NCBI RefSeq assembly: GCF_910592395.1
Contig: NC_088309.1
Span: 12,776,599-12,840,598 of the forward strand
Direction: 5' to 3'
Source: Lineus longissimus
Lineage: Eukaryota; Nemertea; Pilidiophora; Heteronemertea; Lineidae
DNA: 64,000 nucleotides
In this document: in pieces, positions 25,121 through 64,000 of the stretch
Numbering within the stretch: position 1 is the stretch's first letter
Layout: each line of letters starts with the position of its first letter
The notes under the pieces: generated by a model
What the model saw: the letters and a program-made list of their open reading frames with translations, nothing else
Database searches by the model: none
Told to the model about the DNA's origin: nothing
Translations under genes and position numbers: made by a program

Positions 25121-25468
25121 TTTATCAGGAGATTATGTCTTTAAATACCTATAAACTTAATCAACGCAAACATATCACTCTGATTTCTTTGGTTTACTTT
25201 TAAGTCGTTCTCGAAAAACATTCTAAATATTTGGTTTGCTGATTTTATTGCTGTCACTTATTCATCCAAATAATGAGACTGAAAATGAAATCTCAAACTT
25301 GGATGGATATGTTACAGCATCAAAATCAACAAACAGAACGTTTTCAGGACCATCCTAATTAACTGATAAAATACAGTCAAGAGGCCAGTAATTGAGCTGT
25401 GTTCGGGTGACACTGTCTTGACATTTTTAACTGATTTCAGATTGCAACTCTGGAAGCTTTCATTCAAA
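25121..25468. repeat. right inverted arm of the composite element
   Basis: Opposite-strand partner of 21613-21808. The inner end matches over TTTAAAGACATAATCTCCTGA and the outer end over about 95 bases at roughly 80 percent identity by eye. Confidence 0.75.
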
Positions 25469-26917: not shown

Positions 26918-27083
26918 GGGCCGAATTTACGAAGGGTGTTTAAGAGTTAGACGCGTGTAAATTCTACATAATCAGTTTCAGGGCCTAATGCGGTTTTCAT
27001 GAAGAAACCCTGCAAGGCCCTAACTCTGTCTATTCAGACATTAAACGCTGTTTTAAGCTAAACACCCTTTGTAAATTCGGCCC
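26918..27083. mobile_element. 166-bp MITE, copy 2, 3-bp target duplication TGT
   Basis: Reverse orientation of the copy at 17439-17604, same length and near-identical. TGT flanks both sides (26915-26917 and 27084-27086). Confidence 0.85.
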
Positions 27084-33334: not shown

Positions 33335-33492
33335 CGGCCCGGTTTCACAAAGAATCTTAAGTCTGTTTTGGTGACTTAAGTATGAGAATTTAAGTTGATT
33401 CACAAAGAATCTTAACTCGCCTAGCCGACATAAGTACCCCAAAAACTTAAGCACGGTAGCTACCGTACTTAAGTCGGAATGAAGGACACAAA

Positions 33493-34783: not shown

Positions 34784-34869
34784 GTAAGCATGTGTGAATA
34801 GAACACTTTCAAAAGTCAGTTGGTAGCCCTGCCTAGTAACGAAATGCCAGGCATGAATAACTTATTGAT

Positions 34870-35145
34870 TTATTCGTCAACCAGCCGTGTGTCGACGAAA
34901 AGACTGAAGCAGACAACAGGGAACGATTGAAGAACACACCTCACATCCTCGGCAACGGCCTCCCAGGCGGCCCTCTTGGAAGCCTTTGACACGCAGCCCG
35001 TCCCAATGTCCCCTATCCCACTGAAACGTCCAATGCAGTGCCTCTCACGTAGGCGAACAGCCTCCATTAGCATGGCCTCCTCCTGGGATGACCAATTTGT
35101 TGCTCTAACCCGCTTGACTTCATGCACTTCCATGTTTACCTCCAT
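34870..35145 (-). CDS. Harbinger Myb/SANT-like DNA-binding protein, first exon
   Basis: Starts MEVNMEVHEVKRVRATNW on the minus strand. NWSSQEEAMLMEAVRLR begins a Myb/SANT-like trihelix domain, followed by KRAAWEAVAEDV. In Harbinger elements this second protein helps import the nuclease and binds the element ends. A possible donor (GTGTGT) follows VAEDVR, so the stop seen at 34870 may be intronic. The open frame extends upstream to 35448, but the methionine at 35145 has the better start context. Confidence 0.72.
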   Translation of the reverse strand: MEVNMEVHEVKRVRATNWSSQEEAMLMEAVRLRERHCIGRFSGIGDIGTGCVSKASKRAAWEAVAEDVRCVLQSFPVVCFSLFVDTRLVDE

Positions 35146-36001
35146 TTTTCTCGGGCGTAATTTTGCTTGGCCTAGCCTACATACACAACAGTAATGATAT
35201 GGTACCAATTCCATTCTAACCGTCGGTAGTCGCCGCCCGTATTTCCGTACATCCTTACTCCCCTCAGTCAGATCTTCATCTTCGTCCTTAATAATGTGAT
35301 GGGCTCCTTTCGGAACGTAATTGACATACTTGGGCCGCTTGGGCCCAGGGGATTTGGGCAGCAAAGGAGTAAATACTAATAGCGCTTGATTGTAAGAGGG
35401 GGTGTGGGTGTGGCGGAGGGAGGGACGGAATCGCCAAATCTGCTTCAAAATACACCTGTTTAACAGAGGCTTAGAAATTATTACCTACAAAATGAACCAT
35501 GAATTTTATTTGGCGCATTTATTGTTTTATCGGCTATATACATGTACATTCGGTGGTAAGTTTCAATAATAAGAGCACCATAGTTACAAAATACTAGTTA
35601 TTCCTTGGAAAATTTCATCATTATGGGTCATTATCATCCGCACCGCCAAGCATCAGAAACGAAGATCAATGTGTCTCTCCCGCCATGCCCATTTCCCACG
35701 TGGTCGCGATGTGGCATTCACAATCCGACCTCCTTCATTGCCGACCAGCTGAAGAGTTCCTTGGAAACGTACTCGGGAATATTCGTAATCTCACGGAAAC
35801 TCCCGAAGTCTTAGTGGAACTATCGGAGGCTGGCTGAAACGGCCGGCTCAGCACGTTTCACCTGACTTAAGTCATTTTGGGAAAACTTAACTAAGTTCGT
35901 CTTAAGATGCTTTGAGATTCGTACTTAAGTTTTTGACTTGGCTTAGTCAAAATATTATGACTTAAGACAAACACTTAAGATTCTTTGAGAAACCGGGCCC
36001 A

Positions 36002-39342: not shown

Positions 39343-40309
39343 CTATGGCAAGCCAAAGCGGAATTTATTCAAGACTTTAGAATTACCATTCAAGAAGTTA
39401 AATATAAGTTCAAGAAGGAATGTATATGTTCAAGACTAAAATATGTTCAACCTTGAATCAAATGTTTTCAACCTTGAATAAAATATGTTCAACCTTGAAT
39501 AAAATATGTTCAACCTTGAATAAAATATGTCCAACCTTGAACAAAATATATTCAACCTTGAACAAAATATATTCAAGACTCACGTGACCATATTCAAGAC
39601 GCACGTGACCACAAAATTGATGACGTAGTTGCTCATGTTTTGATGCTTTACGGACTTTCCCGAACCCGCGTCCGGACTTTCCCGAACCCATGGTACTTGT
39701 GTTGCGTTTCGGAGCTCGAATTGTTCGCACGAGGTTTTGACACATGGTTGTACACGTACCTAGCCGCCTACACCTGACATGTACTGTAATCCTACACATC
39801 ATGACATGGATGCCGAGTGAATGTCAGAGTCGATACATGTTTCACAGACATATCAGGCAAATTATAGGTTCAAAATGCGCAATGCCTCTCACCTTTCATT
39901 CTTAAGGCCGACACCACTGTATCGGATTCTCGTTGTCTTTTGACATGTTTGAGTGTTTAGGCTATACAGGCAATCAATCATGTCGTGAAACAGAACGCAT
40001 CAGAAGTACCACAGATTCTACGCTCTACGTCATCAATTTTGTGGTCACGTGCGTCTTGAATATGGTCACGTGAGTCTTGAATATATTTTGTTCAAGGTTG
40101 AATATATTTTGTTCAAGGTTGGACATATTTTATTCAAGGTTGAACATATTTTATTCAAGGTTGAACATATTTTATTCAAGGTTGAAAACATTTGATTCAA
40201 GGTTGAACATATTTTAGTCTTGAACATATATTTCCTTCTTGAACTTATATTTAACTTCTTGAATGGTAATTCTAAAGTCTTGAATAAATTCCGCTTTGGC
40301 TTGCCATAG
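39343..40309. mobile_element. foldback element, ~285-bp near-identical arms
   Basis: Left arm 39343-39628 and right arm 40025-40309 are inverted copies that I find to differ at only one short spot, around a 396-bp spacer. Each arm holds about six or seven 21-bp direct subrepeats (TTCAACCTTGAATAAAATAT) and two CACGTG words. TCAT lies outside both ends. The spacer has a tandem CGGACTTTCCCGAACCC pair. Arms built of subrepeats are typical of foldback-type elements. No ORF of interest; the lysine/isoleucine-rich frames are repeat translations. Confidence 0.9.
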
Positions 40310-43615: not shown

Positions 43616-46600
43616 ATGGGGAAGAGGAAAGATGGCGAGCTGGGAGATCCTCTAAGTATAGGTAACCAGAAGTATTAAGGTAGCAGGAAGGGTTGGGCGT
43701 TTGTGGTTTCTGAGTCTGAGGGCGAGGGGGTTGGTGTCTGTTGACTCAATGACTGTGCTTTAAGAGAGACTAGGCATGGCGCCAGTCTCTCTTAAAGGCC
43801 ATATATCAAGGTTTGAAAACATGCTTGATACTCATGAAATATGTTGAGGGTTAAAAAAACAAGATCCCAGACATTTAAAAATTCTAATAATAAAGTCATT
43901 ATTTAGTTATTTCAATTTTTTTCAATTTTAAACTATTTGAATTTCCCACCACACATGACGTAGATCAGGTCAGTCAGAACAAAGCAAGATGGCTTCCGCA
44001 TACAGTTCAGAGAGTGAGAGCAGTGAATTTGAGGATGTTTTGGTCGATACAGAAGGATATTTAAACGTTGAGCCGTACATGTTCGAGCCATTAATATCAC
44101 TAGATCATAATGAGAGTGATCATTCGGACGAAAGTGATTAGAATTTGTGGTTAATCAATTTGCATGGCAGACCTGCCGATATAGCAAAGAAGACATTGAT
44201 AGACGGTTGCAGATGCATATCATGTATGATTTTTGAACAGACTAATGTTGCACAATATTGTTTCGCCTCGTCAGTGTTGTATCGCCAGTTATGTCATGAC
44301 GCTGAACTACTATTGAAAAGTGACGGTATTATGCACAATCATCTTGACGTGACGATATAATGCCGTGCAACGTTAGATAGGCCTAGATGTCAGATGACAA
44401 TAATCTGTCATTGACAGTGGCTGTCACTGACACTGACCTGTGTCGCTGTCACCTTGCTATGGCTGGAACACAAGAAGACACTATGCGGTATCACAGGCCC
44501 CAATAGGGCCTACACATTATGTATAACAACCGACCTCAGCAGCCTCGGGCATTAAATGCAATTGACATGGTTGGAACAGCTATTTTGAACAAGTGGCATT
44601 TAATATTCAGTTGGATGCAGATATCCGGCTTCATGTGATAATCCGTATCGATAAAGTGATCACTGCAAAGTTTGGCCGAAGGCCCAGGCTTCCAACACTC
44701 CAAACGTTTGCACTTCCGAATCCACAGCTTCCTCCTCTCTCGTTCAACTGGCTTTGGAAATTCATGAAAATGGGTCCCATCCGTCATTCAATTGTTCTTT
44801 GTGCTATCCTTGACACAATTCGGAGCCACACAATACACCATAGTGAATGAAACACATTACTTCCAGGTGTGCATAATTAATTAAGGCCCTCCTGCTTTTA
44901 TGATTGCATGACATGTACAGATAACCTGATCTACATCACAACTTTTGCTGAACCCGCCGCCTGGCTCTAACAAGCCAGTTGCTAGCCTGATTAGGTAATC
45001 AAGTTGTCAAACACATAATTGGCTATATCTTCAAAATGGATGGAGCTAATTGCATTTGGTTTTCTGTATTGTATAAAGTGTTAGGTACACTTTTGAAATT
45101 GTCTTACAGCAGAAAATGGCAAAAAACCTTGATATATGGCCTTTAAAGCACAGTCAACAGGCATTTGGTCTCAGTATTTGGGTAAGTACAGAATCAAGGC
45201 AGCCCAGAGAGCAATGATTGAACGATGCTGTGGACAAGTCCAAGGATACTGCATCAGTCACGACCAACTTCTCATCAGAAAGCGTCACCACCAGCATATT
45301 CAATGTTCAGTTCCAACCTGTACCAGTCCAATGCACGCCTGTCATGGTCAGCAGTGGTCAGCTTAGCGCGATATGGAACATTCTTCCGAAACTCAAGTGA
45401 GAGAAGTCTGCTCATTAGCATATCTCGCGCACTGCTCCTTCTTGTCAAACATCGTAGTGAAATCGGAATGGAAAACGTCTGGCTTTGCGCCAGACATTGA
45501 GACTAATAAGTGAAGAACTTCTACTTGAGCGAGACTGCTGTGATGAAATTATCATTGCAGAGGCTTCGGTGACGTACACATATATTTTTTACAATCAAAA
45601 ATGCCCTCAAAAGACGACATGGAATGATTATTTTATTGATATTTCCTACTACATACCTTCCAATTATCACTTTATACAAATAGATCGGCGTTAGGTCGCA
45701 TGCTTTTCTTTCCTGGTGACACTATAAAGCAAAATAGTTGCAACCCCGTAAATGCGCTATAAGTCCAATAATAAGTGACGGTGACCCGTTATAAATTTTT
45801 CGCCAGCTTTGCTTTTTTGCCGCCGCCGCTATGCGGCGCTTTGGGCCCTTGCGTCTAGGGGCCTATATGAGTAAAGAAAAGCCAAGGCCCAGAGGAATTT
45901 GTCAGACAGAGGCAAAATGTGATGAATACTCCAATCCAAGGCAAGGGTTTGTTTACAGACAGAGGTATGCAATGCTGTACAAAAAAGCACACTGATGTAC
46001 ACAAAACTGTATGGGTAAGTGGTATCATGGCAGTTGCCGGTTGGCCGAATAGAAGCAAGCAGTATAGAAAAATAGGTGGGAGAGAGAATGTGAGAAGACG
46101 GCTAGCTAAGCTAGGCCCAGTAGGGGAGGTGCTTGAGGATGGATGAGCATGCGTGGATGGCGAGGATGTCTGGCTGATAAGACGGTTGTTATATGGTGGT
46201 GAGGGGGGAGGGGGTATTTAGTTATGATGATTGATGGTAAGTCTTGCATGGGTTTAGTGGTGCGAGTGTGGTGGTCGGAAACAGTGTGTACATGCGTGTG
46301 GGTGTGGGTATGTGTGCGTGCGTGTGTGTGGGGGGGGGGGGGGTTACAGGGAGAGGGAGAAGGGCCTTTCAGTAATAGGGGATGGGAGGGCCCATAGGTG
46401 CTTCAGAAATCAAGGCTTGTAATTTGTATGGCCTGGGTAGTGTGACTTGAGTGAGGTATATGGGAAAGAGGGTATTATGGGCGGTCTGGGTGGACTGGCT
46501 ATTGTTCCTGGGTGATGGAAACATCACTTGGTTAAGCCCCTTTCAGAGACAGCCTCTGGTTGCCTCTCGGAGATTATGTTACGGACATGTTAAGGGCATG

Positions 46601-47660
46601 CCGCGGCCAATGTGGAATCAGTTCACAGAGGTTTATCAAAAAATCTTATAAAACGAATATCTTTGCGGAAGCGTCGATTTCAGTTTTCATGGTAGGATTG
46701 CGTCTTTGAAATGGGAAATTAACCAGTGAGACCAATGCATTTTCAAGGTAGTCCCTTCTGAGTGGGACCAGACCGTCAACACCTTCCCAGATGCAACGAC
46801 ATTGACAAAATTGTTGTCAAAAGAGGCAGCCCAGGCCGGTCGATTTGGTGCACATGCGTACTTAGGAAAACTTTATCAACTATCACTGAACACGCAGTAC
46901 TATCCGACTATGCCTGATGTTTAAACCATTCAGCATCATCTTATTATTAATTATTTGCAATTGTTAGTGTTAATTGTTAATTTATATTTTTAGTGTTATG
47001 TTCTATTTTCAGACTCCACAAGCTCTTCACACAAAAAACATAAAAAGCACAAAAAGAAACACAAGAAAAGGAAAGATCAGGGTGGCGAAGATGACTTTGT
47101 ATCTGTTGTGGATGAATCCCCAAGACCATCCATCAAACTTACTATCAAGATTGGAGGAGAGATGTTGGGAGAAAAAAGGTGAATTGCTTGATGTTTGCAT
47201 GCTTGTCAAAAAATTAGACTGTAGACAGGCTCTGCAAATGATGAATTGCAAGTTATGCAAGATTAACATGACTAAGGCATATATGGCTCCCAAAAAATTC
47301 TTTTAATGGTAAATTAAAATGTCGCATAAGATCACTTGGCAAAGTTTCATCATCTGTTCAGGAGTTTTTAATTTACATATGACAAGAACTGCAAGAATTA
47401 CAAAACTGGTCATGGAAACTTTATTTATTTTATCCAAATCAAGGATATATGAAGCAAATAGGCCAATTCGTGCGGATCCGGTCATTCCAGGTAATGGTGT
47501 ATAAATTTTGCATCTTAAATTCTTAAAAACTTGTTTGAAACTTTGTGATGTCATCATGCTTTCATTTATGGCTTCAGTGTGACGAAGACTGAGATTATTC
47601 CAGCACCAGCAACCGCCACAGATACCCATGCCAGTGATGATGAGTCGATTGACTGGGAAG
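43616..47660 (+). CDS. INO80B: INO80 complex subunit B-like gene, first three exons
   Basis: Exons 43616-43661, 47013-47178 and 47578-47660; splice sites GTAACC/TTTTCAG, GTGAAT/GCTTCAG and GTAAGA, with phases that agree (1, 2, 1). Exon 1 begins MGKRKDGELGDPLSI, with A at -3 and G at +4. Exon 2 gives an alternating His/Lys tract (HKKHKKHKKKHKKRK), then IKLTIKIGGEMLGEK. Exon 3 continues SVTKTEIIPAPATATDT and SDDESIDWE. The His/Lys tract followed by a 'lysine-rich KIKLGG..LGTKSV' segment is the N-terminal signature of INO80B (also known as PAPA-1), a subunit of the INO80 chromatin remodelling complex. The PAPA-1 core and the zinc-finger HIT end were not found; the later exons may lie beyond what I could trace. 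Intron 1 hosts the TTAA-flanked element. Confidence 0.75.
43764..43791. repeat. 28-bp palindromic insert between TTAA repeats
   Basis: GAGAGACT and AGTCTCTC surround a 12-base centre. TTAA stands on both sides (43760-43763 and 43792-43795). It separates the outer CTGTGCTTTAA flank from the element start, unlike the right side where the two are adjacent. Confidence 0.7.
43989..44360 (+). pseudogene. P2X7-type gene remnant
   Basis: The frame starts MASAYSSESESSEFEDVLVD and contains VEPYMFEP, matching the acidic arm and the Y-x-FEP motif of the genes at 22081 and 59470. It hits TAG at 44139-44141. The same frame then continues with a CRCISC pattern and a later Cys (44203-44260), which resembles a worn zinc-binding head, but the rest of the domain is absent. 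A TGACGTAG motif lies at 43956-43963. The acidic arm alone would be weak evidence; the motif, the promoter word and the THAP partner together support the call. Confidence 0.5.
44566..44841 (-). pseudogene. THAP-domain exon with an in-frame stop
   Basis: On the minus strand a start at 44841 gives MVYCVAPNC (C-x4-C). A TGA at 44788-44790 interrupts, and the same frame then continues HFHEFPKP, KLWIRKCKR, LCSDHF (the C-x2-H pair) and IAVPTM. All THAP hallmarks are present; one nonsense codon breaks the domain after the first cysteine pair. It faces the P2X7-type remnant tail to tail. Confidence 0.8.
45147..47012. other. rest of INO80B intron 1; one coding-like stretch
   Basis: 46736-46923 can be read as a coherent frame (KVVPSEWDQTVNTFPDATTL, then AHAYLGKLYQLSLN) ending in a stop, with a TGA just upstream. 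It looks like the end of an old unidentified coding sequence. Elsewhere nothing is supported. Confidence 0.35.
46285..46345 (+). repeat. GT/G-rich simple sequence
   Basis: Alternating GT and GTGCG words lead into a run of about fifteen Gs, so both Z-DNA-prone and quadruplex-prone sequence. Confidence 0.8.
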
Positions 47661-47740
47661 GTAAGATAATACGAGCGGAGACTTCTTATTTGAGGCTCCC
47701 TAATGAAAAAACTGGTACCTCGAATGCAATATTATCACTA

Positions 47741-47957
47741 CTGTAACCCAGGAAAATTTTGCGGACGTTTTAATTTTGCGGTCTTTGCGGTCTGACCTGA
47801 TCTGTAAAATTAACAAGCGCAAAATGTAACTTCATCCATTTATCATGCATTACAGATTCTGTAGTTCCGGAAAGTTAAAACGTGCAAAGTCGTTATTTTG
47901 CGGGGAAAACAGCTTTTCCACAAAAAAAAGCTGCCGCCAAATATTTCTGGGTTACAG
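47741..47957. mobile_element. 217-bp TA-flanked MITE
   Basis: Ends CTGTAACCCAGGAAAATTTT and inverted CTGTAACCCAGAAATATTTG, with TA on both sides (47739-47740 and 47958-47959). It sits just after INO80B exon 3. Consistent with a Tc1/mariner/pogo MITE. Confidence 0.85.
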
Positions 47958-47959
47958 TA

Positions 47960-48739
47960 TGTAAAGCGTACTGCGCTATGCACCAGAGAGAAGTGTCTGT
48001 TGATCATATCAGAGTCTTTCAATAAAGAGTCGGGCAACTACATAGCTGCCAACCACTACTATACGGATTGTCCGTAGTTTGTACGGATTTGACCCCCTAT
48101 ATACAATCCTACGGTTGTGCTAGCCAAAACTACGACGAATAAAAAAAGTGCGTTCCGTCTTGTTTTTTCTCTTGGTCCATGTTTTATATCTACTCGCTAC
48201 TCAGTACTGAACTCCACATCCCCCAGTGGAGAATCATGGAACTAAGGGCCAGTTGTACTTCCGCCGTTGTTGATACTGTATGTTTTGCATTGTTAGTTGC
48301 GTACTTGTGGTACGGAGTGGGTGGAAGTCAGCTTTTGGATCGGCAAAGAAAATGATGGCACCGCTAATCTTACTGATTGGGGCCTCAAAACTACCGACAA
48401 TTTGTGAAAAAAATTGGTGATTCTACTGATGACCCTTTCTAAAGGTTGGCAGCTATGCAACTAGCGAACATATGATTTCAATATCAAATATCACTGCCCA
48501 TTTCGAAAGACGCGCGTTGTGACAGAGCTCTCTCAGGTCATATCTAAATAGTATGCTAATGTGACATATCGTCAGAATTTTTTTAGTGTTTACACCTCGC
48601 TACCAGAAAATCACAACTTCAAGGCAGTATCTTCATGAAACTCTGAGATATCACTGAAAACACTGGACTGCGAAGGCAAAAATTAGCTGGGAGTCGACAC
48701 ATTTTCTATTTGAAATAGGTAGTAGTAGGTGGGTGCTTT
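47960..48739. other. no gene recognised
   Basis: No INO80B continuation or other coding signal found. Confidence 0.4.
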
Positions 48740-49690
48740 ATAGTGCTACCACCATTTTTCGTTCACCGTAGGGGAGTCTATACAACACCGCTGTGTCCGT
48801 CGTCTTCATTGTCTGTATTCCGTTTCAGAAACAGTGGCACGTTTCTTAACTGCTATAGCTCTGAACTTGAAACTTTGTACACAGGACCCTCAGGTCAGGT
48901 GACCTCTGACAATGAATTTAGGTCCGATCTGATTCTTGATTTGGCCACCAGGGGGCCGGAAATGGAAACCTAAAAAGTGTGATACCTCTCTTAGGTTATA
49001 AGTGACGCGTTTTTCGATAAAAATGTTGTTGTAGGTTCTCCAAGCAAGGATGCATCACTTATCGTACAGGTTTTTGATTTGACCTGATTTTCAAGGGAAA
49101 ATGGCCTAAATTGGCTGTTTGAATGTAAATATGGCCCGTTTCTTTAAACCGCTCAAGCTATGAACTTGAAATGTGGTACACATGACCCCCTACGTCATAT
49201 AACCTCTAAGACCGAAATTCGGTCTGACCAGATTCTCGACTTGGCCACCAGGGGGCCAAAACTAAAAATGGTAAAAAAGGTAATTTTCAAGGTCACAGAG
49301 GCCAAATTGGTAAATTGGCTGTTGAATGTAATGTAACTCTGACAAGTTTCTTAACTGCTAAAGCTATGAACTTGAAATTTGGTACACAAGAATCCCTACG
49401 TCATGTAACCTCGGACAACGAATATCAGTCTGATCTGATTCTCGACTTGGCCACCAGGAAGCAAAAACTAAAAAAGGTAAAAAGTACAAACCTCACTTAT
49501 TAGTGACTTGTTTTCGATGATATTTTTATGGTACAATTGGTGGTACTCCAAGCAAGCATACATCACATGTCATACCGACTTTGGTTTGACCTAAAAACTA
49601 TACATGTAGCATGTTTCTTAACCAGGATGAATTCCTAACCACCAAATATATATACGGTGAACACAATGGCCCCTGGCCGTTTCATATAAA
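48740..49690 (-). mobile_element. family R1 copy, reverse orientation
   Basis: Reads on the minus strand from the 5' signature (GGCCAGGGGCC complement at 49670-49681, with GTGTTCACC) through three core units to a GAC-rich tail near 48790-48825. Confidence 0.8.
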
Positions 49691-50330
49691 ATGTGCGTAT
49701 AAAAAATTCCAGCGAAGCTACCAGGCTGTCAGGCCTCTAGTTGGCGATACACCGGCTGCATTAAAATGTGCTTTTGTTCACTCTAAATAACAAAAGAGGT
49801 AATTATTTGACTGACTGTCTGTTGGAGATGCTTGTGACACACTTGTCCATATTGATTATGATTAAAAAGATTGTACGCTTGAAGTACTAGTTTGGTATCT
49901 ACTGAGAGATAAAACATTCCCAAATGGAAACACCATTGCAAATCACGTTAGTTTGGTGATGTGAGAAATGAGACACCTTCAACGATGTTTTGAGGGCAAT
50001 ATCTTTGAGTTATGATGTAATTTGGTTTGACTGGGGATCGGCGACCCCTCCTGGGTGTAACAAAAAGTAGCCCCCAATCAAAATGGAATGCCAAGCCAAT
50101 GAATGTATTAATGCTTCTTAGGGTAAATCACCTTCTAATCACGATGAAACTGGTTTGGATTGTGTTACGTGTCCCTGACATTATCCCGGGGTTATCCTGA
50201 ACCCCCCTCGGGTGAGGGACAATTTTTTACATGTAATATCAGCAATATCCACACCAAACTTGTTCTATTTGCAGGGTAATTCAATAAAAAGGTAATCCAA
50301 AAGTAAAGGGTTTATTATAAGTCCAGCATA
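49691..50330. other. no gene recognised
   Basis: AT-rich; nothing supported. Confidence 0.4.
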
Positions 50331-50955
50331 TTCATTTTTAGCTCACCTCTGGGGAGCTTATACAACACCGTGGCGTCCGTCTTCGTTGTCCGCAGTAGCT
50401 GTTTGTGGAGCACGTTTCATCACCGCTAGGGCTAGATGGCTAAAACTTGGTGTGAAGGTAGCTTTATGCAGTGTGCCCGGAAATATTTTTCTTTTTCGCG
50501 ATATGACGTACTTTCTGGCCTCCAGGTGGCTATCTTGGAAATTAAACAAAGACGGATTGCAACCAAATTTCATGTGATTGTATATCTATGTGCTCTCTAC
50601 AACATCCCTGATTTTCAGTCAAATCCCATGACAAATATGGCCGCCAGGCCGCCATCTTGAAAATCCAACGAAGTCTTATTACTCCTAAACTGTTCAACGG
50701 ATGTGAACCAATTTCCATGTCACATGTACACTCTTCAATAACCCTGAAATTCAGTCAACTTATAACCAAAATGATATACTTAGATGGTACCAGTAATTTT
50801 CTTTTGTGCCATTGAGCCGAGAAGAATAATATTATTCAATGGAATCAAAACTGGTGAAACTCTCCAGAAACTGTTTTCCCCATAACCACTGCAAATGACA
50901 TGCATTACATTACCCGAGGTGAGCACATGGTCCCTGGACCATTTCATTTGGGTAT
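50331..50955 (-). mobile_element. family R1 copy, reverse orientation
   Basis: Minus-strand 5' end at 50919-50955 (GGTCCAGGGACC palindrome, GTGCTCACCTC). The 3' end near 50338-50360 holds AGCTCACCTC and GGGGAGCT. The body matches 4005-4260 in the opposite orientation, including a palindrome-like GGCCGCCAGGCCGCC block. Confidence 0.75.
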
Positions 50956-51744
50956 AATTATAGTTATACCATAAAGAAAAAGCTATGACTAATCGACTGA
51001 CACCTTAGTTTTAATCCTCCGATCATGCAACACTGAGCACCATTGTTTTGAAAACTATGATGAATCAAAAAGCTGGGCTTTCAAATGATATCATCTCCGA
51101 AATTGTGCAGTCTAAAACCGACAAGAACCATCGCTTCTTAAATGGCTGGTAACCACTGTTTTTGACATCCTGACATAACCAGTGATTTTCAATCTCCTCT
51201 CGATATTTCGAACCCTGTATTCAAAGCAGATTTCGTACGAGCAATGTATGCACAATGCCCTTCCCGTACCTAAATCATTATCAAAGCGATCTTGGAATAA
51301 CCGTTATCATGTCAAACGTGACTTTCTGAGTGGAAGCCAATTTTCAATATGTTCATCCTTATTTATAAAATAGAGTAACTGATCTGCGCCAGACTTTTGA
51401 ACAGAATTACGTTGGTACATCGCATCAAAATCCAAGATGGCTGCCACCTTAGGTGTTGCAATCTCGTGAGTGCACTTGGACAAACACCCTTTAGCGACAA
51501 GGGACCTGGGCGTAACTCCTCTTGATTATACCATACCAAGATGAATGACACTGAGGCCTTTGTGAGATTAACCCCTTACATCCAAAGTGTGAGCCAAGGT
51601 ATTTGTGATATCTCTTTTTCAAAACAATGGTGCTCCGTGATGCATTATCAGTGGATTATAATCAATGTGTCAGTGCCACAGTGGATCAGTCATATCCCCT
51701 ACTTCATGGTTCAAAGACAATATCTACCAAAAAAACCCCTTTTT
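50956..51744. other. no gene recognised
   Basis: Short ORFs only; an isolated CCAAGATGGCTGCC word at 51430. Confidence 0.4.
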
Positions 51745-53823
51745 ATGCCTCCGCTTTAGCGAAAGCGGAGGCATTATGTTTTCGGGTTTTCCGTACGTCC
51801 GTCCGTACATCCGTCCCGACCAAACTTTTGGTCAGATTGATTAGATTTTTGGATGGTACATTTGTACATACTGGGGGAACGTTGCTTTCGAAACTCGGCG
51901 TCATCGGATGACCAGTATGGCCGCCATGGCAGCAATCTTGATTTTGGTGTCCGTTAATTTAACGGAGAACAATTGAGCAGATTGATTACATTTTTGGATG
52001 GTACATTTGTACATACTGGGGGAACGTTGCTTTCGAAACTCGGCGTCATCGGATGACCGGTATGGCCGTCATGGCAGCCATCTTGATTTTGGTGTCCGTC
52101 AATTAAACGGAGAACGATTGAGCAGATTGATTACATTTTTGGATGGTACATTTGTACATACTGGGGGAACGTTGCTTTCGGAACTCGGCGTCATCGGATG
52201 ACCAGTATGGCTGCCATTGCCGCCATCTTGATTTTGGTGTCCGTCAATTAAACGGAGAACGATTGAGCAGATTGATTACATTTTTGGCTGGTACATTTGT
52301 ACATACTGGGGGAACGTTGCTTTCGAAACTCGGCGTCATCGGATGACCAGTTTGGCCGCCATGGCAGCCATCTTGATTTTGGTGTCCGTCAATTTAACGG
52401 AGAACGATTGAGCAGATTGATTACATTTTTGGATGGTACATTTGTACATACTGGGGGAACGTTGCTTTCGAAACTCAGCGTCATCGATGACTAGTATGGC
52501 AGCCATCTTGATTTTGGTGTCCGTTAATTTAACGGAGAACGATTGAGCAGATTGATTACATTTTTGGATGGTACATTTGTACATACTGGGGGAACGTTGC
52601 TTTTGAAACTCGGCGTCATCGATGACCAGTATGGCCGCCATGGCAGCCATCTTGATTTTGGTGTCCGTTAATTTAACGGAGAACGATTGAGCAGATTGAT
52701 TACATTTTTGGATGGTACATTTGTACATACTGGGGGAACGTTGCTTCCGAAACTTGGCGTCAACAGATGACCAGTATGGCCGCCATGGCAGCCATCTTGA
52801 TTTTGGTGTCCGTCAATTAAACGGAGAACGATTGAGCAGATTGATTACATTTTTGGATGGTACATTTGTACATACTGGGGGAACGTTGCTTTCGAAACTC
52901 GGCGTCATCAGATGATCAGTTTGGCCGCCATGGCAGCCATCTTGATTTTGGTGTCCGTCAATTTAACGGAGAACGATTGAGCAGATTGATTACATTTTTA
53001 GATGGTACATTTGTACATACTGGGGGAAAGTTGCTTTCGAAACTCGGCGTCATCGGATGACCAGTATGGCCGCCATGGCAGCCATCTTGATTTTGGTGTC
53101 CGTTAATTTAACGGAGAACGATTGAGCAGGTTGATTACATTTTTGGATGGTACATTTGTACATACTGGGGGAACGTTGCTTTCGAAACTCGGCGTCATCG
53201 ATGACCAGTATGGCCGCCATGGCAGCCATCTTGATTTTGGTGTCCGTTAATTTAACGGAGAACAATTGAGCAGGTTGATTACATTTTTGGATGGTACATT
53301 TGTACATACTGGGGGAACGTTGCTTCCGAAACTCGGCGTCATTGGATGACCAGTATGGCCGCCATGGCAGCCATCTTGATTTTGGTGTCCGTCAATTAAA
53401 CGGAGAACGATTGAGCAGATTGATTACATTTTTGGATGGTGCATTTGTACATACTGGGGGAACGTTGCTTTCGAAACTCGGCGTCATCGGATGACCAGTA
53501 TGGCCGCAATGGTTTTAGTTACATCATAGTGAGAACATTTTATCCATTAAAAAACGTGTGTGCTGGCAAAAAGGTTTCATCATGGTCATGGCCTAATTCT
53601 TTTGTTAAGCCATTTATCACTTATACGTCTATTCTAACTGAACCCTAAAACAATATTACAACAACTGCAGTAATATCGTTCACCATCAGATTCACCATCA
53701 TGCTTTTATGTCAAGAACAGTTACATTGCCATACTATTTCCCACGTTTGATAGACACCATGGCTCAGCTGCAATGTTTAGCGGAGGCATCAACAGTGATT
53801 GCGAGCAATCACTAACTCTCTAG
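51745..53823 (+). mobile_element. DINE/HINE-like non-autonomous Helitron relative (family R2)
   Basis: The 5' end is a perfect hairpin at 51745-51774 (13-bp arms starting ATGCCTCCGCTTT, loop AGCG). A 12-copy tandem array follows. Near the 3' end AGCGGAGGCAT (53779-53789) is the inverted copy of the 5' arm, so there is a subterminal inverted pair. Then comes a second hairpin, AGTGATTGC-GA-GCAATCACT (53794-53813), and the sequence ends CTAG (53820-53823) followed by T. Subterminal inverted repeats, a central minisatellite, a 3' stem-loop and a CTAG end are the published plan of DINE-1/HINE elements. No Rep/helicase is encoded. Confidence 0.8.
51830..53517 (+). repeat. tandem array, ~145-bp unit, 12 copies
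   Basis: The block GGTACATTTGTACATACTGG occurs twelve times (first near 51856, last near 53437, one copy with a changed base) at 144-145-bp steps, with one- or few-base indels. Each unit has three short palindromes: GTACATTTGTAC, GCCATGGC and CCGTTAATTTAACGG (often changed to CCGTCAATTAAACGG). Frames open on both strands shift by one each unit and are not genes. Confidence 0.95.
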
Positions 53824-55552
53824 TTTCGTCTGGATTACCTTTTTATTGATTAAACCTGTAAAGTTAATTCATAAAAGAACATTCGAAAGGTGGCGTTCAG
53901 ATCGATCGTATGCTACCAAATACATGCATGCTTCCTACAGCAAATTTTGGCGCAAATCGCTTGTGAACACGCTTGTGAAAGACTGACGAAGACACTACCT
54001 TCAAATTAATGTTTTTTTTCTGCATAAATACAGGTTTCTTTGGCCAATTTTGACATTGTGTTTGTTTAGGGCCACAAGATATAGAAATATAAAAGAAAGA
54101 AAGAAAAAAATGATTAAATTTTACTTTTTCTTTTTTCCCCAGAAATCGCAAAAAAGTGCGTTTTGGACACATTTTGGTGGATTTTACCCAAAAACGAACC
54201 AGAGTATACACACCAAACTAGAATCACCTGAAAGAACTGAAAATATCCAAGAAACCTTTTCTTTACACCAACATGATAGGAACAGTTGTTTCTTCATGAC
54301 AAGCCTTCAAAAACTAGGTATTGAAAACTGCAAATTTCCCCAAACAAAATTGAATCCCTAAGGGTAAAATTGACTCCCTAAGAGTTAATCTGCCAAGAAC
54401 GATTATTTGCAAAGGATAGTTTTAGCAGATGAAGTAAAATGAAATCTGCCAAGCCAGTGTTACAAGTATGAAGTGGGATTATATATGTTAGGCTCCAAGT
54501 CTTTCATCCTTACTCTCATGCATTTGCATCACCACTATCCACAAACCCATGACCGATTCCATCGACGTTCTTGTTTTCTTGCCACGCTCTCAGCGCGAGG
54601 TCCAATAACTGTGCTGATTAAAAAACTTAAAGAGGGCAAAGGTCAACGCCAATCGCAATGGTGCCCAGCCTCGTCACCTGTATCGGTCCAACTAATGCAA
54701 TTGTTAGTGTATTTTTAGAACCTCGTTTAATGGGCACATGGTTGTAAGCAGAAATTAGTAAAGATGGCTGCCAGTGAAGAAAATTTGGGAATTTAGAAAG
54801 AGACTTTTCATCTGCCTGTTTCCCCTGCGCCATGGCAAAACATGAATTATCACCATTTTAAGTCGTATTTTACTAATTATTGCAAAAATTATTGGAAATG
54901 TCAAAACGTTCAGAACCGGATATGACTGCAGAGACCGTTCCATAAGAGATGTTCTGATTGGTCCAAATTTGAAGCTACTAATACGCAACCGCGGGGCTGA
55001 GTTGACATCTTCCTCATTGACTAGCGCGGAAGACTTCTTTCTGGTACAACGTTTATTCAACAGGCAGAATGGCAGCACTTCTGACCTTGGTGAAGGTTCT
55101 GACTCAGGCAGTCGGCACTAAACGGGACCGAAGTCGTGGATAGGCTAGGCAACCTTGAGTGAGCCAGAACTGAGTGATTTGTAGTGAAAACTCACTGATA
55201 TATATACAGAAATTGGGCCCAGCCTAAGGTTCCCTGAGTCGAGCCTGCACCAAAGCCATACATGATGTTGTAAATCATACATAAACTACATATTCCATAT
55301 TCTAGTAATATGTGTAATGTTACCCTTTGGTATCACTCCTCCCCCCTACGACAAATTTCAACTCCGTTGAAAATAAACAATTATATTATAGAATTATCAC
55401 TATCAAGTACCGATCATTTAATCAAATTAACCAACAAGTGGTACTTCCAAAACCCTTTTCAAATACACATATATAATAATTGGCTCGAGATCAACCGAGG
55501 TTTAATCAATAGGCTTCTAATAAAGATGCTGAAATTGGTTCTTATAATTCAG
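53824..55552. other. no gene recognised
   Basis: A possible short first exon at 55069 (MAALLTLVKVLTQ) has no supporting downstream exon. Nothing else is supported. Confidence 0.35.
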
Positions 55553-56093
55553 TCAATGCCAGGAAATGGGCGTGATCACGCCCGCGCCCACAAACGCCGG
55601 TAAACTACTCTGCACGAGCGCTATCCATAACGCCCGCCAGACACTTGAGGGGCGCGTGCCGCTCATCATAAAAAACACTGGCACGATAACGCTCGCCGAT
55701 TCCCAGCACGATCGTGATTCATTTCCCGGTATCCAGATTTCAATTTCCCGGAAATCTAGAGTCTCACTCAACGTGGTAATTATGCCGTTTAGCGCTGAGT
55801 ACACGCCCGGCTGTACACTTTGCTATAGTTGGCGGTTGCTGCAGTGCGCGGTACTAAGCACATGTTTTGACACACGCCTGGCAACGGCAGCATTTCATTT
55901 TGATTTCGTTCATTGTCCTGTTGTCATTGCCTGATAATCATTCAAGATGAAGCTGAAGACAATGTTAGGATGATCGATTGACCACGAAACCATTGGACAA
56001 CTGGAGGGAGTGAAAAAAATAGTGCCCGTGGAAAAGGTTGCGGGAGTGACTGATGGTTACCGTGGATTTTTCTCATGGTAGGCACTGATAATT
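55553..56093 (+). mobile_element. GC-rich dispersed repeat 'A', second copy
   Basis: Opposite orientation to 20941-21612. Shared start GCCAGGAAATGGGCG, shared AACGCCCGCCRGACACTTGA and GTTGGCGGTTGCTGCAGTG blocks, and shared end GATTTTTCTCATGG. The middles differ by replacement of whole blocks. Confidence 0.8.
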
Positions 56094-57447
56094 GTTACGC
56101 TTGCTAAATTTTGTCAGATCAACTGGGTCTGACCCGAAAAATTTTGTCAAATCCTGACATCGAAAGAATCAGTCCTGAGACTCATTTTTGTTGAAATAAG
56201 CAGCGGTATCAGAACAAGAACCTAAATTGCCTCGCTATAAGTTGAGAAAAATACTGTTCTTTCCAAAACTCAGTTCAAATCATTATCTCTACCAATATAC
56301 TGGTATCAAACACACTCCTTCCCTCCTGTAAAAGTGACAACACCTAAGGTGTTGGCATAGAGGAGTGTCATATAGTAATACTTATTCAAACGTGAAAGAG
56401 AATTTCAAGTTCTGCTACTGGAAATGTTCATAATGTCAAAGGGAAAAGTTCATATCCTGATGAAGAAGACTGTTCAAGTAGAATCAGTTTCATTTTTTCT
56501 GCAAAAGTCTATGATAATGTTCAATATGTAAAGAAATTGAACTGCAAGGAACGAAGACATGTCCTGGATGACATGACATATACTGGATGTGTGTTTTGGA
56601 CAATATAACGTAGATACTGGTTTCATGTCTTGGGAGACATAACGTAGATATAATAACTGTACAATTGGATGACGATCAGCAGCAATTTCCTCTTGTACGT
56701 TTACAAGCGTTCGTTGAAGGCTCCATTCCCTGGTGATACAGCGTATCCAAGGCGGAGTAACGTAACGAGATGGAGATCGAATGTTGACGTAATGTTCCTG
56801 CTAACTTGGTGGGAGAGGCAAAATATAAATAATGTTCATTTACACCGGAGTACCAGCTTATGACCAAGTATGGTTGATATAAAGGTTGATGAGAGCTTAT
56901 GAATGAGTATTTCAACCAAAGTTTCAGCACTGCAACAGCCACTGCACTTGTTATCGAATCCTTAAGTAGCGAAAAGAGTAGAATGTTCTTGGCACAATCA
57001 CGTTCTAGTGTCCATTGAGCTTGCTTGATCCTTGTCCTTGCAGATGACACACACTGATTATTAACTAGATGAGAAACCCAATACAAAACAAACCATTGCC
57101 TTAGATTATAATTTTGATTTTCCCCGAGCCAGTGTGCAAAAAACTGACACAATAAAACTCACGCAAAAAACATTCCGAAACTTGACTATGTTACCTGAGT
57201 TTCATTAATAATACTAATAATACTTATATCTATACCAAATCAATTACCTAATTACAACTTGACAAGAGTTACATTTGAACTCCTTCTTTTAATACACTCT
57301 ATACCGTCCTATATCCTAATCCAAGATTTGCCTCTGACTTGACACAGTTACATTAACTCTAATATTGATAATATTTAGACCTATACTTATTCCTACAATC
57401 TTAGATCCTCATAATCATAATTCTACAACTGGAGTACACTATGCAAA
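56094..57447. other. no gene recognised
   Basis: Possibly part of the 3' region of the broken retroelement that follows on the minus strand; no LTR pair could be identified. A perfect palindrome AACACCTAAGGTGTT is at 56339-56353. Confidence 0.35.
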
Positions 57448-59330
57448 TCAATAAAATTCATAATATCTGCTTCCCTGTTCTTCCACGACTGGGAAGGGAA
57501 TCAGGAGATCCTCATGCCCTAAATACAACAAAGCCGTATATGGAGTATTCAACAACACTCCCAAGCGCTTCATCTTCAATAATGGTGCCCGAACAGAGGT
57601 TGGCAAGTCTATCAGAAGAATCCTTATGTCTGGCCAGTCAATGCCGACTGTTGGCCACGGAAAACGTCGCAACTGATACATTCTCAATATCTGAGGTGAA
57701 GCAGTCAATTGGAAATTGCTCGGACAACCGAGTAATGTCTTCAATTGAATATCCATACTGTCAACCCCATTGGATAACCGCAAAACTATATTTGTGGTTG
57801 CTGTCGTAAAAGGAGTACGAACCAGCTGAACCAACAACTGTAAGTCCTTCCACAAGTAGTGTGATGTGATAAAACAAGCCATCAGCAGAACGCATATCAG
57901 CAAGATGAAATCAGTAGACTAGGTAGAATTGATTATTCCTTGAGTTGGGAACACTGGGCCTTGAAAAGATCCTGGCAGTGGAACATGAATTGACCCATTT
58001 TTGACAATGACAAATCCTCTTGCCACAGGTAAGCTACCTGCTGCAGGAAGAAGAGAAACCATACAACAGTGAGTCCTAATAAATACATAACCGCTTAGAA
58101 GTATAGCTAAAACACTCAATAAGCCTGTCAGAGAAAATACATTACTTGGCGCAAAATCAAAGGTTGACTCGTCCACTGGAGTCAATTCTGAACTGACAGC
58201 AGCCATTTTGGAGGCATATAATTTATGCTTTGCTTGGGCCCGAGTTACTAACTTTTTAAAATCTATGGAAAAATCCTTTTCCTGAGTACTGACCGATTCC
58301 CATTTGTCCTTAATCAGAGTTAGGTTAGGTAGCATCAATTGAGGTGGTTTTTGATACATTTTCTTTCCCGGAATATACACATGATTATTGGGATGCAGTG
58401 TATGATAAACAGCTCGATTTAAAGGATGCAGAAATGTTGGTGTGACCGTTTTAGAAATACAACCTGTCAGTAACAGTTTGGGCGCAACCTTGAAACTATC
58501 ACTAGACTATGAACAACGACATGGAATTTCAAGAAGGCAATAATTGCAATGAGGAATGGTTTGAGAGGGCCGATCCATACAAGACAATTTCCACATACCT
58601 TGTTTACCAGATGCCAAATACGAATCATCGACATCAGCGAGAGCGATGGCTCCCTCAAACAACCCATTTTCTTGATAATGAATAGCACAATGCTTAATTA
58701 TCTCATTTGGTACATCGAAGTATAAGGCGCTAGCACAAGTAAATGTAGTACTGGCCTTCATAGACTAAGTACCCATACAAATTTTTAACTCCTTCCCTTG
58801 ACAAGCCGAGAGGAAATCGTGATTGAACTCTATGAAATAATTCTCATCCTGAGTAACTCCTATATACTCAGTTTTTGGATCGATTAGGGTTGTATGGTCA
58901 CTAGAACCATTGAGTTGAACAGGTGTAGTGATAATGTTGAATATTTCAAAATATGTCAACAAACATTGACCGCAAAAGAATTTTAATTGAGATATACAGG
59001 AATTTGTCAGACTGGGAGTACAGAATGTCTCGTACCTGATAATGGTATGAGGGATCCAAATAAGCTAGTCGGAACTGAGGGTATTGTACTGGAAGCATCT
59101 CCCGTACTTCCTTCAATACAGCCCTTACCTGTTCCGGCGCAACCAAAGAGATTGGGAGATACCCACTGAGAAGAGTCTGAGAAGCCGCTATATAAGTATA
59201 AGCATGTGACTCCTGTTCCATAGCAATAAGATTACTTAAAGGCAAAGCACAATCTGAGGGTACAACTTCGAATATATCGCTCCATGATCGTCATATGAAA
59301 TCATTCAAAAACACAATTAGCAATATAAAC
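57448..59330 (-). pseudogene. envelope-like retroelement remnant, broken in several frames
   Basis: A series of minus-strand frames (58946-59245, 58765-58962, 58507-58761, 57919-58380, 57448-57903) continues from one to the next across stops and frameshifts. They give a cysteine-bearing ectodomain-like stretch, then a heptad-like segment, then one clear hydrophobic span of about 20-25 residues near 58090-58155 with a basic/cysteine tail. The order fits the envelope gene of an LTR retroelement. No gag, pol or LTRs are attached, and the upstream side ends just before the P2X7-type gene. Family assignment is uncertain and the copy is clearly dead. Confidence 0.35.
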
Positions 59331-59430
59331 CACGAGATAAATTTTTTTGGAGCTTTTTGTTACTTGTACCGGGCTCCATTTGTAAACATCGTCTGCTACA
59401 AAAACGACCACTAGCGCCGTCTTCCGTTGA

Positions 59431-59437
59431 TGACGTA
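59431..59437 (+). promoter_or_regulatory. TGACGTA motif before the third P2X7-type gene
   Basis: CRE-like word 33 bases before the ATG. The same core lies upstream of the P2X7-type frames at 22081 and 43989. Confidence 0.5.
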
Positions 59438-59469
59438 TTACCGTGTATCAATTATCATCAGCAATAACA

Positions 59470-61158
59470 ATGGCGGACAATATCAGCAGTTCTTCGATTT
59501 CGAGTGATAGTGACGACGATTTAGCAAGTTCTGGACATGCTGGAGCGAGTGAATCAATATCATCGGTTGATTTAACGGGAGATGAACTCGAGGATCGCGT
59601 TATGGTGGCAGGAGAGGTTCAGGGGTACCAATTCGAGCCGAGTTTCAACTCCGAAGGCAGTGGCAATGGGTCTGGCTCGGAAACTTCGGCTTCTGAATCA
59701 GATTCTCATTCTGACGATCCGGACGGGGTGAAGGCCAAATGGCATGAATGGGCATCAAGAATGAACATAACGGATTGGTACGTGTGTCAAACATTGTCTG
59801 AAAATGTCAGTTAGCCTAATGTTAACCTTCGAACTTTGGTCCGTGCTATGTATTTCCGAGAAAAGCCAAAACGATGCAGATAATCTATCCTGCCTATTAG
59901 GCCATAGGAATGATTAATCCTGTTTACCGTCCGAGTGATTTAAAAAGATGATGAGGCTTTTTTTCATTTTTCATTATTCATTATCGGTTTACAGTCTGAT
60001 TTACTGGTCAAAACACGCGATTCAGCAAGTTCCAGTAAATGGAAATCAGGTCGGTCATCAACATGAGGCATTGAAAAAATGTCATTATTATGATGAAGAG
60101 CCTACCCTGCCAAGTTTTTATTGTGTTTTTCAAGCATTTAAGGTAAAGATGAACCACTGGAAAGATTATTTAAATAAAAAAATGATGGCAACAATAAAAT
60201 AAATAGATTTTTAAAAAAATAATAAAAATATTTCATGTTCGCTCAGAATCCATGCGGGAGGTGGACGGTAAACAGGATTAATAATTCCCATGGCCTAATT
60301 GTATTGTACAGTGGAACAGTCCATCCATGCATGTGTACATGCCAAGTCCAAGATGCAGGCTTGGCTTGACTTACACTGTGAAGTGAATGCACCTGTAAAA
60401 TAGCTGTAGTGCTTCCAAATAAAACTTGACTTCCATACATTTACAAGTATTTTTCTTCTAATTACTAGGTGCGACTGTGGAAAGTTGTGTGTGAATTCAC
60501 CTTTCCCTGAAGAAAATGCGTGCTGCTCTGAAAAGGTCCCCATTTTGAACAAGATGGAAGAATTCAATGCCGACCACGGTGGCGACATCGTATGCATTAC
60601 TAAGCATCCAGGGTTCAGCTCCAACTACCTGGATGTATGGGTTCTACAAGCGGCCTACAGGTTGTACCAGAAGAAACACCGAGTGGGCATAGACGGGGAG
60701 ATCAATATGAATATGTAAGTTCAACATAGAAATAATTATACTTTTGTAATTAGGTTTAGCCAACCAGAGTCATATATCATTACAAGTCAATAGTCAGCCC
60801 TAAATACAAAACAATAATCTAGAGTAAAGTTGGTTTAGTTATGTTATGCAAATCAATATATTTATTTACAAGAAGAAGAAGATGGTTCAACCATTCAAAT
60901 TGATGTTATAGTTAAGCATTTAAATTTTTCCGGAATTTGCACATACCGGTACATCACCAGAAGCTAAAATGAATGCCATTATCTTTCAGGAAATACAGAT
61001 ACATCGCATATCGTCAGCTAGTTGCCTGGTGCTGGGGGTTCCTAGGGAAAGAAAATCGAGTGCCGCTGCCAGCCTGTGCTTTGGATGTGATTCGAAAGAC
61101 ATTTCCAGCTGAAGGAGAACTTGTAGGTTTTAAATACCCCACTCTCAAGAAAAAGTAA
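59470..61158 (+). CDS. P2X7-type zinc-binding domain protein, three exons, 240 aa
   Basis: Exons 59470-59777, 60469-60714 and 60990-61158. Splice ends are GTACGT/TTACTAG and GTAAGT/CTTTCAG; both introns are phase 2, the first splitting the Trp before the cysteine cluster exactly as in the gene at 22081. The N-terminal 100 residues are Ser/Asp/Glu-rich with YQFEPSF. The domain has WCDCGKLC, ACCSEKV, CITKHPGF, LDVWVLQAAYRLY, then YIAYRQLVAWCWGFLGKENR and VPLPAC. The start at 59470 was chosen because CAATGG gives a good context and the acidic arm begins there. No transmembrane part, so a soluble protein; zinc binding is expected from the cysteines. It has one more intron than the gene at 22081, so the two are diverged paralogues. 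The stop lies 27 bp from the stop of the opposite-strand transposase-like gene. Confidence 0.88.
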
Positions 61159-61185
61159 GACACAAGTTAGTGAAAGACTGAAAGT

Positions 61186-64000
61186 TCATTTGTTGTTAAA
61201 ACGACGGAACGTTGTCTGGTACTTTTCAACAGCAGTGGCTTTGTCTGGATGATCGTAGCTTGCGCACAGTGCTTCGTACGTGTTCTTCTTCTCAGGTTGG
61301 ATATTGTTGATGCATCTTCGTTGGACTTCAGGAAGTAATCTCTGGATGTAATCTGTGAATAGAACATTCTGAGTAAGATTTGTACTGGTGTTAACTGTGA
61401 TAGATTATTATTATAGACCCCACATACAACAAATGTGGGGTCTATATTGAGATTACTAGGAGAAGGTACTAGGCTTCTGCATTCTTCCCAGGTTAGGTAG
61501 TCCAGCAAAACTGCTATTTCAACTGAAAAACTGTCACCCCTGTCCCATCAAACTAAACTCGATCTAGTGCACCTGGCAAAGATTTTTTCGAAATTCGGAT
61601 AATTTTGATGACTTTGAAGCGTTTTTATGCGCCGATTTTCGGATTTGTTTTCAAATCTCCGGCACGATTCTGTCACTCACACGTATATTACATGTATTAG
61701 CATAAGCTCCGCCCCGTAATGGTGACGTCATATCCTCATGCATCATGGGTGAGGCTAAAGATACTCGGCCCCCTTTGTTGACATCGGCTATTTTAAGAAA
61801 AGCATATGGTAACTCCTTACCCACAATACATTGCGGACAAACATTACCACGTGTTTTTTTGCATCATGGCTGCGGTATCTGAGCTCTTTGCCGAAGTGGC
61901 GAGCTGTCGAGTATTTTGAGCAAAGAACGACGGTTGAATGTAGGAATAAAATAAAGGAATAGCTTATCGATGATCCATCCTGCCCATCTGAAAAGGTTAG
62001 GGTGCTGTTTAAATGTTATTGAGCGTGTGATTTTGAGAAAGCGCGAGCGTGTTTGTCCGGAAATAGATCATCCGCGAAACGGAATAGACTTCACTCCTCC
62101 ATACGTGTACTGTGTGGGCCCGTGGGGGATATCGAATTTGCTGCCAAGCAACTTCAAATTTCTAATATATTTCTTTATATCTTCCTGTTCTCTCCCTTCT
62201 TCCCAATACTGGCGGTAGAAGATTCCAGCAATACCCCCAAGTACAAGTGGGAGCTATCAAATTTGCTGACAAGCAAATTTCAAATTTCTAGTTAATTTTA
62301 ATATTTGAAAGCATTTAAATAAATTTATTAATAAAATGGTCATAATTTTGTAATTACTAATTTCTTTTGGCCTTACCGTGTGTGCTAGCTTTCTTGATGG
62401 GACGAACAGAGTAAGCCCCCTTCTTGACTTTTGGAAATATGATTGACCATCTTTCATCACCTGTGCTTGTTACTGCCTGGTCTTTGTTTCCATTCTCATT
62501 GTTGTGTAGTCCTGCTAGGTACAACCTGAAAGTAATTGTTAGAGAAGTAAGTACAGGATGCACCATTAAAAAAAGCGACATGTTGTGTATGTCTTCATAT
62601 TACAGTATTCATTGGTGTATTATGTAATGAAATATTTCATCACCTAAATGTTAGAGAATGGATGTTTTACCTGCTTTTCATTCCTTCATGATCGAAATGC
62701 AGCTGCTTTGGGGCGAAGTGGTTTATGACACTATGGAAAGCCTCAAGTCCGGACGTCTGCTTCCCACATGAGAGCTTTCCAATATCATTCACGAATCGGG
62801 TTGCCGTTATCACCTTGGTCACTTTGGTGGACACTTTGGTTCCTGGAATTTAAAGGGGAAATGGTCAATCATGTCCACATTACTATGATGCAATTCTGCC
62901 ATGGAGATAACTTAGGCAGCTAATAAATTTAGATGTACAGTTTGGTATAAAATCATTTTTGCATCCATCTGTATACTAACATTAGAACATCGACAATTTC
63001 TCAGAGTTGCTGACAGAACCAACTTGGGGTGTCTCTATCTCTTGGGGCAAAGGGAGATTAGAAAGTGACACAAGGTCTTACCTGCTTCAAACCACTTCTT
63101 GTTTCTCATTGCATTTTTCCTTATTCTTTTTGTGAGCACATTTGGGGAATAATTCTCCATGGCCTGTATGGACATTGTGCATGTGGTCATCCAGAGACAA
63201 CCACTTTGCCTTGAGTAGTGCGCTGTCCCCTTCCGGTGTTTTTGATGCAATGAAATACACATGATTCATCATGGACTTGCACCAGTCTGCTGCTAGTTGG
63301 CAGTCCTTTTCCTTTGAAATCTTGAGGATTTTCTTCTTCAGATCTGGAAATATAAAAAAAGGAAAACACACCTTATGATAAAAAATATTTTTGCATCAAT
63401 GAATGGGTTATTGGATTAGTAGGCCTGGTGGCCATAGAAAACATGCCATGATGAAAAGCATGCAGTCATGCAGGGGTTCGTTGGGGGTATGCCTGTATGC
63501 CTATAATCGACTCACTCTTGGCAAGGTGCCACACATCAAAGAAGTGTTTCGTTTCAGGAAGGTTCTCGCGCAGCCATTTCGCAATCATAACGTGGCGATC
63601 TGTAATGATGCTGTACATAACAATCCCTTCCTCTTGCAGAACTTTGGTGCATCGAATTAGACCCTCTTTTTCCATGTGAACTGATGATTTCACCTCAGTA
63701 GACTAGAATGAGATATACATGTAATGAGGTGTATTAATGATACATGTAGATGATAGCCAGCATTTGCCAGGTGCTCAAATACAAAACAATTGAATATTCA
63801 TGTATTGCAATACTGACCTGAACAAGTTCGATGTCCAGGATTTTCTTCATCTCCAGATCCATGAGTGTATAGCAGCCATACTTTGCTGAATGCCCAGGTG
63901 TATCAGAACGCCCATCACCTCCAACCACCAAGGGATAATCTGCTTCCTTCACAGCATCCAAGATTTCTCTCTGCTCTTGTCTCCATGCATCCTGAACAGC
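61186..64000 (-). CDS. DDE transposase-like gene, six exons in window, continues past the edge
   Basis: Minus-strand exons: 63818 to beyond 64000, 63516-63702, 63082-63343, 62671-62842, 62377-62525 and 61186-61352. All introns have GT/AG ends and matching phases if one extra base in exon 3 is allowed for. Motifs in order: LVVGGDGRSDTPGHSAKYG (first Asp), a VKSSVHMEKEG block, IITDRHVMIAKWL (second Asp), HFFDVWHLAK (the D-x-W-H insertion typical of Kolobok and related families), HMHNVHTGH and KCAH metal-binding-like residues, SGLEAFHSVINHFAPK (the Glu), HFDHEGMKSR, and a C-terminal YLAGLHNNENG region. All acidic catalytic positions are kept. In exon 3 a run of A bases (about 63133-63137) puts the frame one base out; the open frame resumes in phase with KKWFEAG. 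Could be a domesticated gene, a live transposase with an assembly error, or a recent pseudogene. The N-terminus, where a THAP domain may lie, is outside the window. Confidence 0.8.
61413..61445. repeat. perfect 13-bp inverted repeat in the last intron
   Basis: ATAGACCCCACAT and ATGTGGGGTCTAT around a 7-base loop. Looks like the 5' hairpin of another DINE-like family, with no 3' part visible. Confidence 0.7.

Follow-up and report, generated by a model that had tools for sequence, protein, structure and literature searches.

Kolobok DNA transposons insert at TTAA targets, have ends that begin with 5'-RR and encode a transposase that contains a C/DxxH motif; in nearly every lineage, the final E is also preceded by a zinc motif (PMC9587614). 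These transposases usually contain THAP, H2CH and DDE parts (PMC6004289). According to Kojima and Bao (2022, PMC9587614), the Kol0 lineage carries a second gene, KolX, whose product has the fold of the P2X7 ballast domain, and P2X7 itself arose when KolX became joined to a P2X4-like gene. Here we describe three gene pairs, A, B and C, in a 64,000-nucleotide (nt) stretch of the genome of the nemertean Lineus longissimus (assembly GCF_910592395.1, contig NC_088309.1, positions 12,776,599 to 12,840,598 of the forward strand), which is referred to below as the window and within which all positions are counted. Each pair consists of a P2X7-type gene on the forward strand and a THAP or DDE gene on the reverse strand, arranged tail to tail at 21.8-25.1, 43.8-45.1 and 59.5-64 kilobases (kb), respectively, in agreement with a first-pass annotation that had placed three such pairs at about these positions. 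Very probably, A, B and C represent three different Kolobok transposons of the KolX-carrying (Kol0) type, with A and B being internal-deletion derivatives. That annotation had also proposed that vertebrate P2X7 could owe its ballast domain to a transposon-borne gene, a proposal that we reach here from sequence likeness and that agrees with the KolX account of Kojima and Bao; because the KolX origin was published by these authors in 2022 (PMC9587614), it is not original to this work. The window thus offers an independent reading that fits the transposon origin of the P2X7 ballast domain already proposed in print, along with a worked anatomy (ends, exons and convergent layout) of KolX-bearing Kolobok elements.

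Taken across the three pairs, the TTAA targets, RR ends and THAP domain of Kolobok are found, along with a likely D..D..DxxH..zinc..E layout read by eye in C, and the Kol0 trait, a second gene KolX with a ballast domain (P2RX7_C in Pfam), is present in A and C. The P2RX7_C matches of A and C and the THAP matches of A and B all exceed the Pfam cut-offs. The features shared with the Kol0 families (PMC9587614) are the two-gene plan, in which a likely DDE transposase is paired with KolX of the ballast fold, the TTAA targets and the 5'-RR termini. In contrast to those families, the window harbors three dissimilar elements within 64 kb, of which A and B are short and lack the DDE part. How KolX is oriented in the Kol0 families described before is not stated in the passages of PMC9587614 drawn on here; the layout in the window is convergent. 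The Xenopus Kolobok elements termed XKol (PMC6004289) share the AG termini, the TTAA flanks and a transposase with THAP, H2CH and DDE parts, the THAP part of C being expected beyond the window; P2X is not mentioned in the main text of that paper. Among the PMC papers searched, KolX and Kolobok appear together only in PMC9587614, as do 'cytoplasmic ballast' and transposon; two of these papers mention both Kolobok and P2X, and the other one does so in unrelated places of its text.

Both A and B are bounded by inverted ends that start with AG and are flanked by TTAA, i.e. they display the TTAA target duplication and the 5'-RR inverted termini of Kolobok. Element A occupies positions 21786-25144 with both TTAA copies included (3351 nt without them) and has the inverted ends AGACATAATCTCCTGA. 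Element B, again with its TTAA copies, spans positions 43792-45146; its inverted ends begin with AGGCCATATATCAAGG and are identical over 23 nt when the TTAA is counted. The first-pass annotation had called for a check of inverted arms, and such arms are present in A and B. We scanned the whole window for TTAA-RR end pairs that are 100-15000 base pairs (bp) apart and share at least 14 identical end bases, using 200 order-2 Markov sequences as the null. Three end pairs were found, two of which bound A and B, as opposed to none in any of the 200 random sequences. Lowering the threshold to 10 identical bases yields 7 pairs in the window, compared with 0.02 on average in random sequence; several of the 7 stem from other repeats. 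This null is low for a window so rich in repeats, so the weight rests on the fit of the ends to the gene pairs.

The third pair of TTAA-RR sites (17466/27056) encloses A and was rejected as a pair of element ends, as it apparently belongs to two opposite copies of another repeat. Arms of 175 nt that are 97% complementary are located at 17439-17613 and 26909-27083, 9.3 kb apart, with A between them; they are probably a single repeat present in two opposite copies. Closer to A, but outside its TTAA ends, there is a 95-nt inverted repeat (80%) at 21620-21714 and 25371-25463. This repeat was also considered as the arms of A and rejected, given that it surrounds the TTAA-AG ends and that no TTAA-RR was seen at its own termini; A seems to be nested in another palindromic repeat.

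The KolX gene of A has an open frame of 234 amino acids in two exons separated by a GT/AG intron: exon 1 (22081-22319, forward strand), which ends at a GT donor, and exon 2 (22849-23314, forward strand), which encodes the ballast domain and includes the stop codon. Its product matches the Pfam family P2RX7_C with an E-value of 1e-13. The THAP gene on the reverse strand consists of three exons over 24847-23508, joined by GT/AG introns. Exon 1 (24589-24847) has one frame break as sequenced, exon 2 (23932-24085) encodes the end of the THAP domain and an AVPTIL box, and exon 3 (23508-23645) reaches a stop codon without any DDE part. With an X put at the frame break, the product matches the Pfam THAP family with an E-value of 1.9e-12.

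Pair C retains more of the transposase. Its KolX gene encodes an open frame of 240 amino acids in three forward-strand exons (59470-59777, 60469-60714 and 60990-61158, the last one including the stop codon), with both introns of the GT/AG type, and the product matches P2RX7_C with an E-value of 1.7e-11. The transposase gene, on the reverse strand, comprises six exons with GT/AG at the five junctions seen and one frame break. Read from the window edge, where its frame is still open, these are an exon with the likely first D in GGDGRSD (63818-64000), an exon with the likely second D in TDRH and the DxxH motif in DVWH (63516-63702), an exon with a likely zinc motif, HNVH..C.H, and the frame break towards its 3' end (63082-63343), an exon with the likely catalytic E in GLEAFH (62671-62842), a further exon at 62377-62525, and the last exon with the stop codon (61186-61352). 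All of these motifs were assigned by eye. The THAP part and the right end of C would lie beyond position 64000. A site scan of the region 58801-59475 revealed two TTAA, of which only the one at 59236-59253 (forward strand) is followed by RR; this is the candidate left end of C, and it has no inverted partner within the window. Frame pieces on the reverse strand (57448-59290) resemble, by eye, the env of a retroelement and end where C begins. None of these three pieces has a Pfam match. Element C may have inserted into an env-like retroelement frame, or its end may have been lost.

Element B is the most eroded of the three. What appears to be the remnant of a KolX-like first exon covers 50 residues (43989-44138) and a stop codon ending at 44141 on the forward strand; it is tied to KolX solely by its serine/acid-rich make-up and by its YMFEP sequence, a form of the YxFEP motif common to A and C. 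On the reverse strand, a THAP remnant with an internal stop (44539-44841) matches the THAP family with an E-value of 1.1e-9 in the part after the stop. The 3' ends of both genes have been lost in B, so the spacing of the stop codons cannot be measured there; it is 193 nt in A and 27 nt in C. Accordingly, the spacing that the first-pass annotation had described as common to all pairs is not shared, although the orientation is. In the left flank of B (43750-43795), a palindrome whose arms are 12 nt long (TTAAGAGAGACT..AGTCTCTCTTAA) extends as far as the TTAA of B itself; on its outer side, 14 nt (43750-43763) read as the inverse of the right flank (45143-45156). A scar left by excision or another, very small TTAA insertion could perhaps explain this arrangement.

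At the DNA level, A, B and C show no likeness to one another above chance, the best E-value being 0.11 (A versus B), in line with the earlier suggestion that the pairs are independent. They therefore represent different families or old lineages, rather than copies of one recent element. The best alignment between the ballast regions, that of the KolX proteins of A and C, has 39.8% identity. When the six transposase exons of C were used as queries one by one, with E-values of up to 10 allowed, the best hits were at chance level in both A (1.1) and B (4.8). The absence of any DDE part from A and B is expected of deletion derivatives, and in this respect the earlier suggestion that the first two pairs are such derivatives is supported. 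Pattern searches returned 27 and 32 stretches from prokaryote contigs and 0 and 14 stretches from viral contigs, with no confirmed relative in either set, as expected there.

The full form of such an element would have KolX reading inward from one end and the THAP-DDE transposase gene reading inward from the other, with their tails meeting. Binding of the inverted ends would fall to the THAP domain, and cutting and joining at TTAA to the DDE core. KolX, a predicted zinc-binding protein with the ballast fold, would assist the transposase, most likely by helping to assemble the complex on the ends. In A and B, an internal deletion would have left the ends and the outer exons in place.

In a PDB sequence search with an E-value cut-off of 0.01, P2X7 chains were the sole matches for the KolX proteins of A (3 distinct sequences) and C (4 distinct sequences). 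Both proteins have the ballast cysteine clusters, so the Pfam match and the zinc cysteines that characterize the P2X7 ballast domain occur together in each. They share the WCxCx2-3C, CC, CIT and LPxC clusters and the IRxxFP stretch with the P2X7 ballast and with zebrafish Nanor (PMC7016195); unlike in P2X7, the ballast is found here in short channel-less proteins inside transposons. Rump et al. (2020, PMC7016195) described the ballast domain across animals, nanor genes without conserved synteny, a zebrafish nanor-b that groups with arthropods, and an Ixodes protein with a domain printed as 'TAHP', which we read as THAP. No word beginning with 'transpos' occurs in the main text of that paper.

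Several observations weigh against the assignment of the three pairs to KolX-carrying Kolobok transposons. The frames of A's THAP gene and of C's transposase are broken, and the latter has no match to a Pfam transposase model above the cut-off, the best one being PF20700 (Mutator) at 19.6 bits versus the 26.5 required. The THAP part and the right end of C fall outside the 64 kb. Its candidate left TTAA sits inside an open frame on the opposite strand (58946-59290), so the left end of C may be elsewhere or lost. The P2X7-type part of B is a short, low-complexity exon that matches no Pfam model. Finally, a single-sequence fold model of A's KolX was unusable (mean predicted local distance difference test score, pLDDT, of 35.3), which leaves the ballast fold to be judged from sequence likeness.

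The absence of a DDE part from both A and B would also fit a reading in which they are more than deletion derivatives: A would be an element of KolX plus THAP only, whose short THAP gene has a product of its own. The three exons, GT/AG introns, own stop codon and whole THAP domain of that gene are consistent with such a role. The product could perhaps act like the KP repressor of the P element, which is likewise a shortened form that retains the end-binding portion. Unlike KP, A and B belong to another superfamily, and their THAP frames are broken as sequenced, once in A and by a stop inside the frame in B. A second copy, which would indicate that A's form has spread, was not seen in the window, and we consider this alternative unlikely. 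We continue to regard A and B as Kolobok derivatives that arose by internal deletion.

The ballast of rat P2X7 holds a guanine nucleotide (PMC7016195), and the P element transposase, also a THAP-DDE protein, requires guanosine triphosphate (GTP), which it binds through a built-in domain (PMC7776569). Of the guanine contacts in rat P2X7 that were compared by alignment with PDB P2X7 (R546, H547, R574, R578 and K583), the KolX of A retains three of five (R546, H547 and R578) and that of C two of five (R546 and R578); the full rat site is found in neither. Invertebrates keep R546 and R578 alone (Rump et al. 2020, PMC7016195). These numbers lend weak support to a role of KolX as a nucleotide factor and in part speak against it. 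Under such a scheme, KolX would be a guanine-nucleotide factor acting in trans to the THAP-DDE transposase, comparable to the built-in GTP-binding domain of the P element; the guanine site of P2X7 would be a relic of transposition chemistry, and non-autonomous A-like elements would keep KolX open as an aid to their own mobilization. We consider this scheme very unlikely. A use of guanine nucleotide binding by KolX in transposition would, if real, account for where the nucleotide site of P2X7 comes from.

Ordinary host genes of the P2X7 and THAP types, kept together through old linkage and not parts of any transposon, would account for the KolX frames being open in A and C, and Rump et al. (PMC7016195) reported ballast-domain genes linked with two markers across invertebrates. 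Linkage of host genes does not predict the TTAA-RR inverted ends around A and B, which are not expected by chance, nor the transposase-like partner gene in C, nor the dissimilarity of the three stretches at the DNA level, and this explanation is hardly credible. A reading in which the KolX-like gene is carried by a different superfamily, piggyBac, would fit the TTAA targets, which piggyBac shares, and the related protein found in a few piggyBac families (Kojima and Bao, PMC9587614), but it is barely conceivable given the AG ends, which are of the RR type that these authors use to tell Kolobok from piggyBac, the THAP domain in A and B, and the cysteine clusters in the KolX of A and C, which are mostly lacking in the piggyBac relatives (PMC9587614).

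Elsewhere in the window, a reverse-strand open frame (3338-3913) matches Pfam DDE_3 with an E-value of 1.1e-14 and looks, by eye, like a Tc1/mariner transposase. A forward-strand open frame (33460-35484) resembles a HARBI1-type nuclease by eye and has no Pfam match; beside it, on the reverse strand, there is a weak Myb/SANT match (PF13873, E-value 0.0018, below the cut-off). The two are perhaps a Harbinger-type pair, likewise consisting of two genes on opposite strands. A long inverted repeat at 39343-40309 has arms of 206 and 78 nt, both 100% identical, with 396 nt between the inner arms, and is partly built of 21-nt tandem units. A minisatellite of family D1, whose units are mostly 145 bp long, occupies positions 51762-53644.

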